Below, piece by piece: positions 1 through 30,957 of a stretch of 64,000 nt of DNA (positions within the stretch are counted from its first letter, which is position 1; every line of letters begins with the position of its first letter). The DNA is from a virus, in IMG/VR virus record IMGVR_UViG_3300020274_000001, positions 62,001 to 126,000 of that record; one strand, written 5' to 3'. The notes below the pieces were generated by a model, which saw only the letters and a list, made by a program, of their open reading frames with translations, was not told where the DNA came from and searched no databases. A program made the translations under genes and the position numbers.

Positions 1-113
1 CATGAAAGGTCGCTTCAAACGTTCCACCCCGGTGGGACCTCTGTGAGCACTACTTTGTTCGGAAGAAAGAAGAGGCGAGAAACGATTCTGCCTTGTTTCA
101 GAACCATGTCAAG
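1..113 (+). other. Non-coding start of window with hairpins
   Basis: No convincing ORF is seen. The stretch holds a GTTCCACC/GGTGGGAC hairpin near 21-38. Its hairpin-rich look resembles the 15.2-16.5 kb non-coding region, so it may be the end of another small-RNA block cut by the window edge. That is inference. Confidence 0.4.
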
Positions 114-125
114 AACATATTCTAA
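114..125 (+). promoter_or_regulatory. AACATATTCTAA promoter-like motif, copy 1
   Basis: The sequence AACATATTCTAA followed by AGCAT precedes the AAA+ gene by about 255 nt. The same motif occurs five more times between 15493 and 16239. Its AT-rich core and placement ahead of structured RNA suggest a promoter element, but it is not a canonical archaeal TATA box. The function is inferred. Confidence 0.5.
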
Positions 126-15201: not shown

Positions 15202-15492
15202 GACGCTGAACCAAGGAAAACGAGGGCGCAAGCCCGATGACCTTGATTCGCAATCGCACGCTCGCGTCAAGAACGAGCGGCGACATAAAACGCAAAAATA
15301 CACGCATTCGCGCTCACGTGCGATTGCGAATACAGTTGCAATGAAAAAAAAAGTGAAAGGAGAATATAGGTGCGGCACTCTGCGTGCTGACCAATTCTGC
15401 TTGCTGGGAACTGTTGGACAATGGTCCACACGGTCCGTGTGAAGCAGCACTGGAGGCGATGTATTATGGCTATCGAGCCATCATCGCTGACA
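15202..15492 (+). ncRNA. Non-coding region with 14-bp perfect inverted repeat
   Basis: No gene is visible. Perfect 14-bp arms TTCGCAATCGCACG (15247-15260) and its complement (15317-15330) enclose about 56 nt with a smaller GCTCG/CGAGC hairpin. The outer arm is followed by TACAG, echoing the ACAG that follows stems elsewhere. An A9 run lies at about 15344. An ACACGG/CCGTGT hairpin follows at about 15428. Confidence 0.5.
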
Positions 15493-15504
15493 AACATATT
15501 CTAT
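15493..15504 (+). promoter_or_regulatory. AACATATTCTAT motif, copy 2
   Basis: Preceded by CTGACA. Followed within 20 nt by an ACTTCC-ACT-GGAAGT hairpin. Confidence 0.45.
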
Positions 15505-15649
15505 CACAGATGGATACTTCCACTGGAAGTTCCGGAATCATTGCCCAACCTTGCGTTCACTAATCTGAGGTCTGGGAAATATTTCCCCCGACCGGTCGAC
15601 CGATGGAATTCTTCTTTACAGGTGTTCCATGGTGGCTAATTAGTGATGA
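15505..15649 (+). ncRNA. Candidate small RNA module 1
   Basis: Begins after the motif and holds the ACTTCC/GGAAGT hairpin and further GC-rich inverted segments (GGGAAATATTTCCC and CGACCGGTCG). No coding potential is apparent; a 72-codon frame across it lacks any start signal. Confidence 0.4.
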
Positions 15650-15661
15650 AACATATTCTAA
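15650..15661 (+). promoter_or_regulatory. AACATATTCTAA motif, copy 3
   Basis: Exact match to the motif before the AAA+ gene, preceded by GTGATGA. 157 bp after the previous copy. Confidence 0.5.
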
Positions 15662-15847
15662 CACGAATGTGCCCTCAGTAAGTAGAGACTACTCAACTTG
15701 CGTTGCAAGAAGATGTCAAATTTGACAAAAATCTTGGGACTGAAAATGAGAGAGCGCATTCAATACCCAATCACACCGCTACTCATTGCAGAGTAGTTCG
15801 GAGAAAACCCAGAGCAATCTGGAGTATACTCAGGGGATTGGCGATAG
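15662..15847 (+). ncRNA. Candidate small RNA module 2
   Basis: Contains the hairpins AGTAG-AGA-CTACT and CTTGC-GTT-GCAAG and the palindromes TCAAATTTGA and GAGTATACTC. No ORF. Confidence 0.4.
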
Positions 15848-15859
15848 AACATAGTCTAA
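15848..15859 (+). promoter_or_regulatory. AACATAGTCTAA motif, copy 4
   Basis: One mismatch to the consensus; 198 bp after the previous copy. Confidence 0.4.
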
Positions 15860-16037
15860 GTCGTAATCCGTGCCTATGAGCACGAGATGCTGAAGAATAA
15901 CCAGAATATTTTCTGGTCACCGACGAAAATTTTCGGAATTAACTGTCCGCATATGCGGACTGATTTACGAACGTAATTGGGACCAACATCCGCAATGGAC
16001 GACGTCAGTCGTCAATATAAGGCTGATTTGGATGAGA
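15860..16037 (+). ncRNA. Candidate small RNA module 3
   Basis: Dense in hairpins: CGTGC-CTATGA-GCACG, CCAGAA-TATT-TTCTGG, CGAAAATTTTCG, GTCCGCATATGCGGAC (16-nt palindrome) and GACGAC-GTCA-GTCGTC. No ORF. Confidence 0.45.
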
Positions 16038-16049
16038 AACATATTCTAA
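16038..16049 (+). promoter_or_regulatory. AACATATTCTAA motif, copy 5
   Basis: Exact match, followed by AGCAT as at copy 1; 190 bp after the previous copy. Confidence 0.5.
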
Positions 16050-16227
16050 AGCATTTAAGTCTGGGTAAACCAGACCGGATACAGCCGAATAACAGCAGAA
16101 AATTCATATGAATTATTTTGCTATTCCAAAATCGATACGATATTTCTTGCTACCCTTATTGGGGATAAAGGAACGAAGGTGAGGACTCACCTCTTTCTCT
16201 ACGTTAAAGTAGACAGAATATCTGACA
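16050..16227 (+). ncRNA. Candidate small RNA module 4
   Basis: Hairpins GTCTGG-GTAAA-CCAGAC, a long imperfect stem around AATTCATATGAATT, and GGTGAG-GA-CTCACC. No ORF. Confidence 0.45.
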
Positions 16228-16239
16228 AACATGTTCTAA
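16228..16239 (+). promoter_or_regulatory. AACATGTTCTAA motif, copy 6
   Basis: One mismatch to the consensus; 190 bp after the previous copy. Likely drives the transcript that leads into the gene at 16514. Confidence 0.45.
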
Positions 16240-16513
16240 GACAAATAAGGACTCTATCTGGATGCGGTTACGAAGTAATCGATTACCCGGGTAGAAACTC
16301 AGTTCGTGGTGTTGTCCAACTACCATACCAATGACTAACCACTTTTCCAAGTGGAGTTCCTCGTTGGGTGGTAGATGAGACACCGAATATGACCAAAGCG
16401 AATACGATGGAACGGTAGGGTTGACCCCCTTTACCGATTTCCTCCTTGGGGAAAGGCGTCCCCAGAACCGAACCAATGCAAATGAAATGCATCTTGCCCG
16501 TATGGTTCACAGA
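16240..16513 (+). promoter_or_regulatory. Leader with hairpins and one 44-nt element
   Basis: Non-coding leader with CCACTT-TTCC-AAGTGG (about 16339) and GGGG/CCCC (about 16448-16463) hairpins; the latter ends in AG directly abutting a GAACC/GGTTC element (16465-16508, central GAAATGCA), then ACAGA and ATG 16514. A frame from 16421 would translate the element and is rejected. Confidence 0.55.
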
Positions 16514-17242: not shown

Positions 17243-17304
17243 GCCAAAGGGCCATAGAACCGAACCATGGACGCTGTATTGTATATCCCCCGTGTGGTTC
17301 ATAG
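17242..17304 (+). repeat. Junction: hairpin + one 44-nt element ending ATAG
   Basis: GGCC-AAAG-GGCC, ATAG, GAACC/GGTTC element (17257-17300, central GTATTGTA), then ATAG and ATG 17305. It is the exception to the rule that the gene-proximal element ends in ACAG. Confidence 0.75.
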
Positions 17305-17628
17305 ATGTGGAATAATACTCCCATGGTAAAGGATGATGGTCAACACATTATCCTAATTACCGGTGACGTCGAAGAAGACGAGGCCGGATGGATTGTGGCA
17401 GAAATGCCTTATCCAGATGAAGAGACGTTGCGTCTCGAACAACAGAAGAGAGCCATGATGATTAGTGGCCTACCTCTTGCTTACAAAGTCTTACAAGACA
17501 TCAGAGAAGATGCACTTAGGATGATGGAAGGTAGTAGTGGACATTTTGCCCACCTCAATACCTTCGTGCTACAAGCAGAACGAGCCTTGGCATTCATGCC
17601 GTGGCTTGACGAGGAAAAGGAGGAATAA
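17305..17628 (+). CDS. Hypothetical protein, 107 aa
   Basis: Unrecognised acidic protein, helical C-terminal half. A second ATG at 17323 is possible, but 17305 abuts the signal. Confidence 0.55.
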   Translation: MWNNTPMVKDDGQHIILITGDVEEDEAGWIVAEMPYPDEETLRLEQQKRAMMISGLPLAYKVLQDIREDALRMMEGSSGHFAHLNTFVLQAERALAFMPWLDEEKEE

Positions 17629-25212: not shown

Positions 25213-25314
25213 TTCCTCATAGAGCAAAACATGATACCAGCATTACAGCCAATCCGAATGCTCATAGAACCGAATCAAGTTTCACGTATGGCAAGTTCGT
25301 CGTATGGTTCACAG
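25204..25314 (+). repeat. Junction: stop hairpin + two elements
   Basis: GAGGA/TCCTC hairpin, ATAG, GAGCA/TGCTC element (25222-25263, central GCATTACA), ATAG, GAACC/GGTTC element (25267-25310, central GTATGGCA), ACAG, ATG 25315. Confidence 0.8.
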
Positions 25315-25731
25315 ATGGCATTAACATGTCCAGATTGCGGTCAAGAGACCGCTTATGTGCGTGTCGGCATTTACGTCGACCCACATGACACAAGTGTCGA
25401 GGCCCTGTCTGAACAGGTCAGCGACATCATAGGCACAGGACCGGAAGACTTCGACGACGAACTTCCTACGGTCTGTGCAGAGTGCGAATGCCAAGTCCCA
25501 TACAGACTTGCATTTGCCGCCACTGTAAGAAAGCAGGCTCACAAGAATGACGAAGAAGCGGCAATGGCTTACCGTCATGCGCTTGCTGGAGTTGTCCATT
25601 TCTTTGGACGCCTACCAATCGCCGAAAATGAGGCTTGGACAGAGGACCAGCATGAAGCCTATGAAGCAACACACCGTTTGTTCGCTGTTCTTGATGAACC
25701 CGAACAAGACGAAACCTCGGAAGAGGAATGA
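25315..25731 (+). CDS. Zinc-ribbon protein, 138 aa
   Basis: CPDCGQ at residues 5-10 and CAECEC near 54-59 make a zinc ribbon; the rest is helical and acidic. A frame from 25231 reads through both RNA elements and is rejected. Confidence 0.6.
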   Translation: MALTCPDCGQETAYVRVGIYVDPHDTSVEALSEQVSDIIGTGPEDFDDELPTVCAECECQVPYRLAFAATVRKQAHKNDEEAAMAYRHALAGVVHFFGRLPIAENEAWTEDQHEAYEATHRLFAVLDEPEQDETSEEE

Positions 25732-25932: not shown

Positions 25933-26574
25933 ATGAAGACAAACATCAACATCCAACTCGAAGGCGAAGAAGCCCTCGAGGTTATACGGGCTTTGCTTGG
26001 AAACCCAAGTAAGTCTGTCAAGGTAGAAGTTCTACCAGACGATACACAAACGACAGAAAGTCGTAAAATGACAGAAGAACCAGACAACACTCGACATTGC
26101 ACAAGATGTGGAGTGAAATTAGAATCTTCTGTAAATATCAAAACAGGTAGATTTATTCGAAGAGAATTTGTCTGCAATGGTTGTTATTCTGGAAGCAGAA
26201 AGGGCAAGAAGGTGAACCGAACAGGTTCCAATCACTGTCGTAAATGCGGAGTAGAATTGACAACAGATAATTGGCAGAGTAAACGAAGTTATATCTGCAC
26301 ATCTTGTAAAGTCAAAAAATCGGATGACCACGTTACTATCACGGCTGAACAGCGAACCCAGTGGGCTCGTGAACGTCGTGAAATCATAGGCGGCAAAATC
26401 ACACAAGTAGGAACCTTCCAAGGTGCGCTCATCGTAGAGCATATCCGAGGAACACACTACAAGATACAACTCCCAAGCGGAGCAGTGATTGACGCCAAGC
26501 ACAAGAAGCAGAAGACCCTTGGTGGGGACGAACTCGGTGCTGGTTGGAGTAAGTGGGAGAAACGGTCTGGATAG
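25933..26574 (+). CDS. Shared-module protein with two zinc ribbons, 213 aa
   Basis: N-terminal module NINIQLEGEEALEVIRALLG as in the proteins at 6017 and 7378. Then CTRCGVKLE with FVCNGCY, and CRKCGVELT with YICTSCK, form two zinc ribbons (about residues 55-85 and 100-125). A basic C-terminal region follows. Likely nucleic-acid binding. The three proteins seem to be one family with swapped DNA-binding ends. Confidence 0.6.
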   Translation: MKTNINIQLEGEEALEVIRALLGNPSKSVKVEVLPDDTQTTESRKMTEEPDNTRHCTRCGVKLESSVNIKTGRFIRREFVCNGCYSGSRKGKKVNRTGSNHCRKCGVELTTDNWQSKRSYICTSCKVKKSDDHVTITAEQRTQWARERREIIGGKITQVGTFQGALIVEHIRGTHYKIQLPSGAVIDAKHKKQKTLGGDELGAGWSKWEKRSG

Positions 26575-29427: not shown

Positions 29428-29573
29428 CCCCATAGAGCAAAACAGGCACGGTGAAATACATAGGACACGTATGCTCATAGAACCAAAACACTTTGTCGGT
29501 ATTGCATACTTGTAGTGTGGTTCACAGAATCGAATCAAGTATACAGTATTGTAGAACAAAAGAATGATTTATT
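29419..29573 (+). repeat. Terminal junction: stop hairpin + three elements, no gene
   Basis: GGGG-ATTGA-CCCC, ATAG, GAGCA/TGCTC (29435-29476), ATAG, GAACC/GGTTC (29480-29523), ACAG, and a degenerate element starting GAATC with central GTATTGTA. No start codon follows; the terminator does. Elements are therefore not strictly tied to a downstream gene. Confidence 0.7.
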
Positions 29574-29618
29574 GAGAGAGAAGTAGACAGAAATGTCCAC
29601 TTCTCTCTCTTTTTTTTT
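29574..29618 (+). terminator. Strong hairpin-T9 terminator
   Basis: GAGAGAGAAGT (29574-29584) pairs perfectly with ACTTCTCTCTC (29599-29609), followed by nine T residues. It ends the plus-strand array and separates it from the convergent minus-strand replication genes. Confidence 0.85.
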
Positions 29619-29634
29619 GGCTCAAAAAATCACA

Positions 29635-30957
29635 TTAAGCGGCGGCGACTTCTTCGGAGGTCGTCGTCGCTTTTTCTTTTTCGACCTTTACATCCATGCA
29701 TAGAATCGAGTATGCTTCGTAGCGAGGGACAGTGTAAGTCCCCGGTGCTACGACTCTATCAAGAACGTGCACATTGCACTCGTTCTTGACTTCGATTTCT
29801 ACCATGTCTCTACCAACAGAGTCTCTAATGTGCTCAAACATGAGGTCCAAGTCATCAAGCATGTCATAGGTGATTTCGATACAAGGCATACCAGAAGTAG
29901 TGTGCAAGGAACCAATCAATCTCAATTGACGATTCAATTCTTTGGTAATGGCGTCAGCCTCCACTCCTTTTGTCAGTTGTGCTCTTTGAATGACCATTCG
30001 GATAAGGTGCTTCAAGCCGGTTGACTTGAGACCAGCCGCATTGGCGTGGCGAGTCAAAGCCCAATCCTTTGTCAGTTGCTCAAGCACATACTGATTAGTT
30101 AGGAAGTCGTGTATTTGCTGGTATACTCCATCTGTAATCTTGACAGTCTCTTTCGATGTGAAAGAAGGTCGCTTGAACGTAGAGTCTTTGATGCTACCTT
30201 GGTGTATTGGAGTCCAAGACTTCAATCGTTCCATCTTCATCTCATCTGTTGGCAAAGAGTAGTATTCGTTTACCATCTCAATGAAAGTCTGCGTGAACAG
30301 TCCTCCCCATCCGGGGACATTGTTCGGATACAGACGATATTGAAATTGTCCTTTCTTGTTAGCCCATACTCCTTGGTGATTGGATACATGAAGGAACCCA
30401 CTCAAGTGGACCTCGTGTCCTCGCACATAATTCTCGATGTTTGCTCGCTCGGCTGTTCCCATAGACAGTAGAGATTCGTCAGTGACAACCATGTGATATC
30501 CACGGTGTCCAGAAAATCGTATAGAGATGTATTGTGGGTCAATAGCGAGGTCTTTCGTCAAGAAAAAGTAGAGTCTCTTCGCGTTTTCCTTTGCATGTTC
30601 AAGACCATGACGGTAAGAACGAATGTTAGGCAAGTGGTCGTAATCGATATCAAAACCAATGTCAATACCAGCATGACCTTTGTCATTCATTCCCCAACGA
30701 ACATGCTCATCGGGGCTCATGTTCTTGGTAGCGTATGGTTCTCTTCGCTCTGGGTCAAAGTATCGGGCCAGACTGTGGGTAATAGAGACGGGGGCCGTTT
30801 CTATGGCATACTCTCGAAGTGCGTCGACAGACGGGAACGCTTTATGGCGAGACTGGTGGCTGAACATGAATTCTCTGCGCTCGACCGCCTTCACATCGAG
30901 GTCTGTCGTTTCATAGAACGACTTGATTGCCTCTTCAAAGGTGCCAATGGAGAACAT
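29635..30957 (-). CDS. priS: Archaeo-eukaryotic primase small subunit (second copy)
   Basis: 440 aa. AEP motifs: GFDIDYDHLP (D103, D105), IRFSGHRGYHMVV (near 147-158) and RLIGSLHTTSG (346-356), with D335 upstream as the likely third acidic residue. The intervening region is longer than in the copy at 18692 and the two share little beyond the motifs, so they look like separate acquisitions. It is the last gene of the minus-strand replication operon behind MCM. Start ATG 30957 has AGGAGAGTGA upstream. Confidence 0.88.
   Translation of the reverse strand: MFSIGTFEEAIKSFYETTDLDVKAVERREFMFSHQSRHKAFPSVDALREYAIETAPVSITHSLARYFDPERREPYATKNMSPDEHVRWGMNDKGHAGIDIGFDIDYDHLPNIRSYRHGLEHAKENAKRLYFFLTKDLAIDPQYISIRFSGHRGYHMVVTDESLLSMGTAERANIENYVRGHEVHLSGFLHVSNHQGVWANKKGQFQYRLYPNNVPGWGGLFTQTFIEMVNEYYSLPTDEMKMERLKSWTPIHQGSIKDSTFKRPSFTSKETVKITDGVYQQIHDFLTNQYVLEQLTKDWALTRHANAAGLKSTGLKHLIRMVIQRAQLTKGVEADAITKELNRQLRLIGSLHTTSGMPCIEITYDMLDDLDLMFEHIRDSVGRDMVEIEVKNECNVHVLDRVVAPGTYTVPRYEAYSILCMDVKVEKEKATTTSEEVAAA

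Follow-up and report, generated by a model that had tools for sequence, protein, structure and literature searches.

Positions 15202 to 16464 of the 64,000-nucleotide (nt) window analyzed here, which spans positions 62001-126000 of the 140,336-base virus record IMGVR_UViG_3300020274_000001 (G000; coordinates are those of the window unless another locus is named), raise the question of what an archaeal tailed virus carries in a stretch so rich in hairpins. Our analyses revealed that this stretch, bank A, is one of two banks of structured, non-coding modules led by a promoter-like box, and that many of the modules hold a piece of a single viral gene, CP204; this anatomy is well supported. Scraps of the same gene are scattered in a like manner in related viruses, which suggests an undescribed form of RNA-based interference or regulation between related viruses.

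The hairpin-rich character of bank A, proposed in a preliminary description of this DNA, proved real: perfect hairpins with stems of at least 6 nt covered 22.6% of it, compared to 3.6% ± 2.2 in dinucleotide shuffles (z 8.6), the top value among all 1263-nt windows scanned, and both palindromes named at the time were present (module A3 in Table 1). The AACATATTCTAA box was found in five copies with 0 or 1 mismatch, all on the + strand and spaced by 157, 198, 190, and 190 nt. Over the whole window, box matches with up to 2 mismatches numbered 22, against 7.7 expected, a count reached by 0 of 100 shuffles. A module had been described downstream of each promoter-like motif, which held for these five; the first module, A0, had no recognizable box upstream. 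Structure prediction against shuffled controls bore out the folding of the modules, five of the six lying well under their shuffles (z -3.4 to -6.4). Some structure is present throughout the genome (genome-wide mean fold z -1.2), and the bank has more of it, the mean per 150-nt window being -1.06 (sd 1.55) for coding DNA versus -2.81 for the bank. Separately, the strongest fold z-scores of the window fell outside the bank, at 29551-29700 (-8.5), 25951-26100 (-6.5), and 1951-2100 (-5.7), some of them in coding DNA. Covariance models identified no Rfam 15 family, tRNA, or tmRNA in the bank. The modules had in common only the box of 12 to 14 nt, with no longer shared sequence and no CRISPR-type direct repeats between them; no pair of long near-identical repeats was found within either bank, and no search aimed at a diversity-generating retroelement was made.

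The gene from which the pieces derive, CP204, encodes 204 amino acids (aa). Its intact copy in G000 (L011:1647-2261) lies within the structural gene region, and gene position is the only pointer to its function; it had no Pfam or PHROG match, and its structure prediction gave no usable fold, with a predicted local distance difference test score (pLDDT) of 31. A single intact CP204 was found in each of 14 further group records, and the intact gene also occurred in two contigs of genome assemblies. Judged by sequence identity, it is this virus group's most conserved gene: it was 86% identical between G000 and G001, most other shared proteins being about 24-65% identical.

Comparison of the banks with the genome of G000 itself, followed by protein-level mapping, revealed CP204 pieces of 27 to 102 nt in at least seven modules across the two banks, in both orientations and in scrambled order. 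E-values, scaled to one genome, were 1.9e-13, 1.5e-7, 2.9e-4, 1.2e-3, 0.018, and 1.0 for six of the seven pieces, which overlapped little (union 118 residues, p 0.04). The largest contained an in-frame stop. The piece with the start codon also matched 20 nt of the untranslated leader of CP204 in the relative G034 (44 nt, 84%), so that the thing copied was nucleic acid rather than peptide. The conclusion that no coding frame is supported needs qualification: no open reading frame (ORF) of the bank had homologs, and short in-frame pieces of a viral protein were embedded in it. Two further candidates were rejected. Hairpins were not significantly perfected within the pieces relative to the native gene (mean stem 4.67 versus 4.37, p 0.27), and the possible 13-aa piece of the next-but-one structural gene in module A5, matching over only 20 nt at the nucleotide level, was too weakly supported for a claim.

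A second bank of the same kind, bank B, occupied G000:60400-62260, mostly left of the window, with boxes at L009 1200, 1742, 1898, 2109, 2264, 2478, and 2615 and modules that were structured too (fold z -2.0 to -5.5). It was preceded by a hairpin-rich stretch at L009 340-860, and an inverted repeat, TGCGTGTGAATTGAATTAGTTCAATTCATACGCA, was observed at L009 112-145. Elsewhere, a minus-strand box followed by GTCGACAGTATATAAA was observed at L012 10246-10310 (-); as GTCGACAGTATATAAA was common to this site and to the bank B module at L009 1200-1264 (83% over 30 nt), the site is possibly another lone module.

Table 1. Features of bank A and, in the last two lines, of bank B
Feature	Position in window	Strand	Evidence
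Module A0, strongly structured, without clear box, holds CP204 piece	15202..15492	+	fold z -5.2; inverted repeat ATTCGCAATCGCACG/CGTGCGATTGCGAAT
CP204 piece, residues 42-64 (KGEYRCGTLRADQFCLLGTVGQW), sense, in A0	15356..15424	+	E 1.5e-7
Promoter-like box AACATATTCTAT	15493..15504	+	motif match
Module A1, no CP204 piece found	15505..15649	+	fold z -1.7
Promoter-like box AACATATTCTAA	15650..15661	+	motif match
Module A2, strongest-folding module	15662..15847	+	fold z -6.4
CP204 piece, residues 105-116 (IQYPITPLLIAE), sense, in A2, followed by hairpin CTACTC..GAGTAG	15758..15793	+	E 1.0, weak singly
Promoter-like box AACATAGTCTAA	15848..15859	+	motif match
Module A3, palindromes 15945-15960 and 15998-16013, no CP204 piece found	15860..16037	+	fold z -3.4
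Promoter-like box AACATATTCTAA	16038..16049	+	motif match
Module A4, doubtful CP204 piece	16050..16227	+	fold z -4.3
Doubtful CP204 piece YPYWG, residues 29-33, in A4	about 16151-16181		E 2.3
Promoter-like box AACATGTTCTAA	16228..16239	+	motif match
Module A5	16240..16464	+	fold z -3.5
CP204 piece, residues 178-193 (EKWLVIGMVVGQHHEL), antisense to boxes, in A5	16300..16347	-	E 2.9e-4
Possible 13-aa piece (PSGVPRWVVDETP) of next-but-one structural gene (328 aa), head to head with CP204 piece	16347..16385	+	E 0.008-0.05
Last box of bank B, 29 nt upstream of ATG of AAA-ATPase frame	114..125	+	motif match
CP204 pieces in bank B, residues 122-155 (+), 93-107 (-), 31-47 (+), 1-10 (+)			protein-level mapping

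A lack of stem conservation in relatives had been named as something that would refute the idea of an RNA bank, and the outcome spoke in part against refutation. Box and modules were not conserved outside G000, and no box clusters were found in 45 other virus records; what the relatives had were conserved non-coding elements with CP204 pieces in them. CP204 pieces were identified in G033, G034, G035, G036, G045, G046, G047, and G048, where they sat in intergenic elements and in the linkers of other genes, in frames and on strands unrelated to CP204. None were found in the closer G001 and G042 or in the distant CP204-bearing G043 and G049; G044 gave one marginal match, and this distant clade (G043, G044, and G049) yielded no pieces when searched with its own CP204. 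Among 45 chaperonin-related, magrovirus-like virus records without the gene, none had a piece at E up to 1. A nucleotide-level screen for isolated gene pieces was dominated by diverged orthologs, and a protein-level screen with synteny filters was used in its place. Across 373 ORF families in 12 genomes, CP204 was the top source of isolated pieces elsewhere, with 11 strict sites spread over 5 genomes; no other family exceeded 4 sites, and these were accounted for by neighboring or short orthologous genes. The median length of the roughly 30 pieces was 45 nt, and the longest measured about 100 nt. As a side observation, viruses of the group encode an Rpb1-type RNA polymerase and TFB (loci L012 18529-19965 (-) in G000, L124 15952-19926 (-), and L124 11846-12778), and the family-B DNA polymerase (PolB) gene is convergent to the RNA polymerase gene. 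The intergenic region between these two genes held CP204 pieces in relatives; in G000 it had a box on the reverse strand (L012 18425).

Different parts of CP204 were found exchanged at the same slots, observed in a sample of few genomes and few independent lineages, with G033, G046, and G047 sharing identical sequence. A linker slot of a 277-aa protein held residues 114-129 in sense (G034, G035, and G046), 40-68 in sense (G045), or 48-64 in antisense (G048), and slots of a 168-aa protein held residues 171-196 or 185-194 in sense, 28-64 in antisense, or, in G048, 147-156 in sense. Within a homologous intergenic element, D, the slot held residues 138-152 in sense (G033), 93-100 in antisense (G034 and G045), or no piece (G035). 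An antisense copy of the CP204 start was kept in all four of these versions of element D and formed its best conserved 24-column window (0.92 versus 0.65 for the rest).

That pieces may come from other viruses is argued by exact matches. Pieces in G033 matched the CP204 of G031 at 31/31 nt and that of G036 at 24/24 nt, the virus's own gene being mismatched in each case (overall CP204 identity between G031 and G033 was 78%). Six of the seven G000 pieces were closest to another virus's CP204, yet with 15-25% mismatches, a count that is weak alone, since it sets the best match among many foreign genes against a single own gene; the piece in A0, for instance, had 17 mismatches over 69 nt to the CP204 of G031 and 19 to its own. 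For one of the seven, the own gene was the single closest (8 mismatches over 36 nt). The true sources of the G000 pieces would thus be unsampled, or the pieces aged. Mismatches by CP204 codon position were concentrated at the third (0.39 versus 0.17 and 0.15) in pieces that are not read in that frame, as would be expected if they come from, or stay matched to, functioning CP204 genes. Predicted duplexes with CP204 mRNA of the group (the own one where known) were more stable than shuffled for 7 of 8 antisense pieces tested, two of them modestly; for the antisense piece in A5, pairing with its own CP204 mRNA gave -69 kcal/mol versus -44 shuffled.

We tentatively favor the view that the pieces form a scattered set of spacer-like RNAs that act, through homology, on the CP204 of related viruses, for which we consider the chances to be somewhat below even. 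The box would be a promoter for short RNAs, and the modules would most likely be transcribed; antisense pieces would pair with the CP204 RNA of co-infecting relatives, and sense pieces would act on CP204 DNA or pair with, or titrate, antisense RNAs. The net effect would be that co-infecting relatives make less of a key protein or that the carrier is shielded. At the slots in relatives, the piece is swapped between lineages and often comes from another virus of the group; the overall arrangement would amount to a library of viral spacers that does without CRISPR. More doubtful is the full version of this proposal, a renewable library of short pieces from the competitors' most conserved gene, placed in structured small-RNA genes and in the linkers of the virus's own proteins, exchanged at fixed slots, and silencing or excluding co-infecting relatives through nucleic-acid homology. 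The bank of regulatory or decoy RNAs envisaged in the preliminary description fits the anatomy of box plus structured module and remains the best class of explanation, although it did not see what the modules chiefly contain, namely fragments of one conserved viral gene.

Several points weigh against a homology-guided RNA set. No effector was recognized, and transcription from the boxes, like the pairing and the interference between viruses, is a step that we infer from sequence. The orientation of the pieces is mixed: in G000, five of the seven have the same sense as CP204 mRNA and are unable to pair with it, the other two being complementary to it. The G000 pieces, diverged as they are from any known CP204, have no exact target match, and some modules hold no recognizable piece. 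A location inside protein linkers is odd for a guide RNA. Finally, there is a detection bias: with CP204 so highly conserved, pieces of it are easier to recognize than those of other genes.

The main rival, which we consider unlikely but by no means negligible, is that the pieces are debris of recombination: additional copies of CP204, or fragments of its abundant mRNA or of its DNA from co-infecting viruses, would have been inserted at permissive sites and be decaying, the hairpins being a separate property of non-coding DNA in this virus. The insertion sites, intergenic regions and protein linkers, are indeed permissive, the pieces include stops, and in several slots a pair of colinear pieces lacks the stretch between them (residues 98-116 plus 145-157; 28-40 plus 52-64); neither foreign origin nor mixed orientation requires a function. 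Decay, however, should give a range of sizes, and no remnant longer than 46 codons was found among the roughly 30 pieces. Nor does debris lead one to expect that no other gene yields comparable pieces, that the same slots are refilled across lineages, that conservation within element D peaks at the antisense start piece, or that the pieces in G000 lie within box-bounded, structured modules.

Alternatively, the pieces might serve self-regulation: as operator copies or sites for pairing, they would let the virus's own CP204 RNA or protein tune its own genes, for example, in a late shutdown of early genes. This would suit the conservation of the antisense start piece and the position of slots in or next to genes for DNA replication and transcription (the PolB-RNA polymerase intergenic region, a gene beside TFB, and an ExoX-like gene). 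It is made rather improbable by pieces often being closer to another virus's CP204 than to the own one and by one slot taking different parts of CP204 in both orientations. Still less probable is structured DNA for replication, packaging, or recombination: the dense palindromes and the location between gene blocks are compatible with it, but there is no skew switch at 15-16 kb, CP204 pieces and boxes would be left unexplained, and the replication or packaging region considered in the preliminary description gained no positive support. A fragmented second CP204 gene whose pieces trans-splicing would join, in the manner of diplonemid mitochondria or split tRNAs, could account for little-overlapping pieces each in its own promoter-led module, but we reject it as very improbable given the opposite orientations within one bank (two pieces run against the boxes), the in-frame stop in the longest piece, the upstream leader in the first, the absence of variable regions 11-30 and 65-92 from the pieces, and the existence of an intact CP204.

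Relative to known systems, an RNA set of this kind would be closest in logic to the mini-CRISPR arrays of archaeal viruses, which hold short pieces of related viruses from either strand, apparently for inter-virus conflict (PMC6858448). The pieces here likewise lie on either strand; they match the CP204 of relatives, exactly for only a few (31/31 and 24/24) and for none in G000. Unlike these arrays, however, the banks have neither repeats nor a leader, and the pieces (24-102 nt) are partly diverged, derive nearly all from one gene, and sit inside individually structured, box-led modules or protein linkers. Antisense RNAs are known to act on phage genes, for example, the immunity RNAs of P4 and P1 and the PLE satellite RNA SviR, which acts against the capsid mRNA of ICP1. 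These are closest in possible mechanism, in that a small RNA complementary to a structural or key phage gene gives exclusion or interference; the library here differs in being drawn from several source viruses and in both orientations, and its transcription and effect are putative. Silent cassettes for gene conversion, of the pilS and vlsE type, are incomplete, unexpressed versions of a surface or structural gene that is itself expressed. Such incomplete versions occur here as well, but they are short and structured, are box-led, and lie in both orientations; no tracts identical to the own expressed gene were found, and the pieces match other viruses with no visible feed into variation of the own CP204. 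No description of such CP204 pieces was found in the open-access papers searched.

With regard to the virus itself, G000 encodes MCM, two primase small subunits, a Cdc48-like AAA protein, PolB, a TCP-1/cpn60 chaperonin, a partial Rpb1-type RNA polymerase, and a terminase-like protein; its relative G034 encodes a full-length Rpb1 homolog, TFB, and PolB. Magroviruses (Aoguangviridae) are archaeal tailed viruses with PolB, MCM, primase, and chaperonin (PMC10768690). Set by gene content alone against the replisome and chaperonin genes of the Magrovirales, archaeal Caudoviricetes, G000 has MCM, primase, PolB, a chaperonin, and a terminase-like protein; the group described here also has the Rpb1-type RNA polymerase subunit, and CP204 and its pieces are absent from the 45 magrovirus-like records. 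The G000 chaperonin was 36-50% identical to chaperonins of many virus contigs, and 0 of 30 chaperonin-related records were matched by an MCM query. A large serine recombinase is also encoded (L012 11609-12499). About 17 near-identical elements lie just upstream of + strand gene starts between 4290 and 29530 (e.g., 16472-16512, 17256-17306, and 25264-25315), each with CATAGAACCgAACCA, about 10 nt, a GAATTACA-like box, about 9 nt, and TGGTTCACAGATG with the start codon, at 33 or 38-39 nt from GAACC to GGTTC and with no Shine-Dalgarno sequence. These are probably a second class of virus-specific promoter or operator, serving leaderless genes. As a pattern, the GAACC/GGTTC element was absent from the viral contigs searched, and no relatives were found through it or through single proteins (MCM and the ORF at 16508).

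If functional, the banks and slots would constitute a heritable memory of rival viruses in nucleic-acid form, without CRISPR repeats or a recognizable effector, in uncultured archaeal viruses that carry a gene for an RNA polymerase subunit. Even if they are only the residue of recombination, the process by which one gene was captured repeatedly at the same sites in independent lineages is unexplained and worth study. In either case, the "non-coding" hairpin regions of such viruses can be read by comparison with the viruses' own structural genes.
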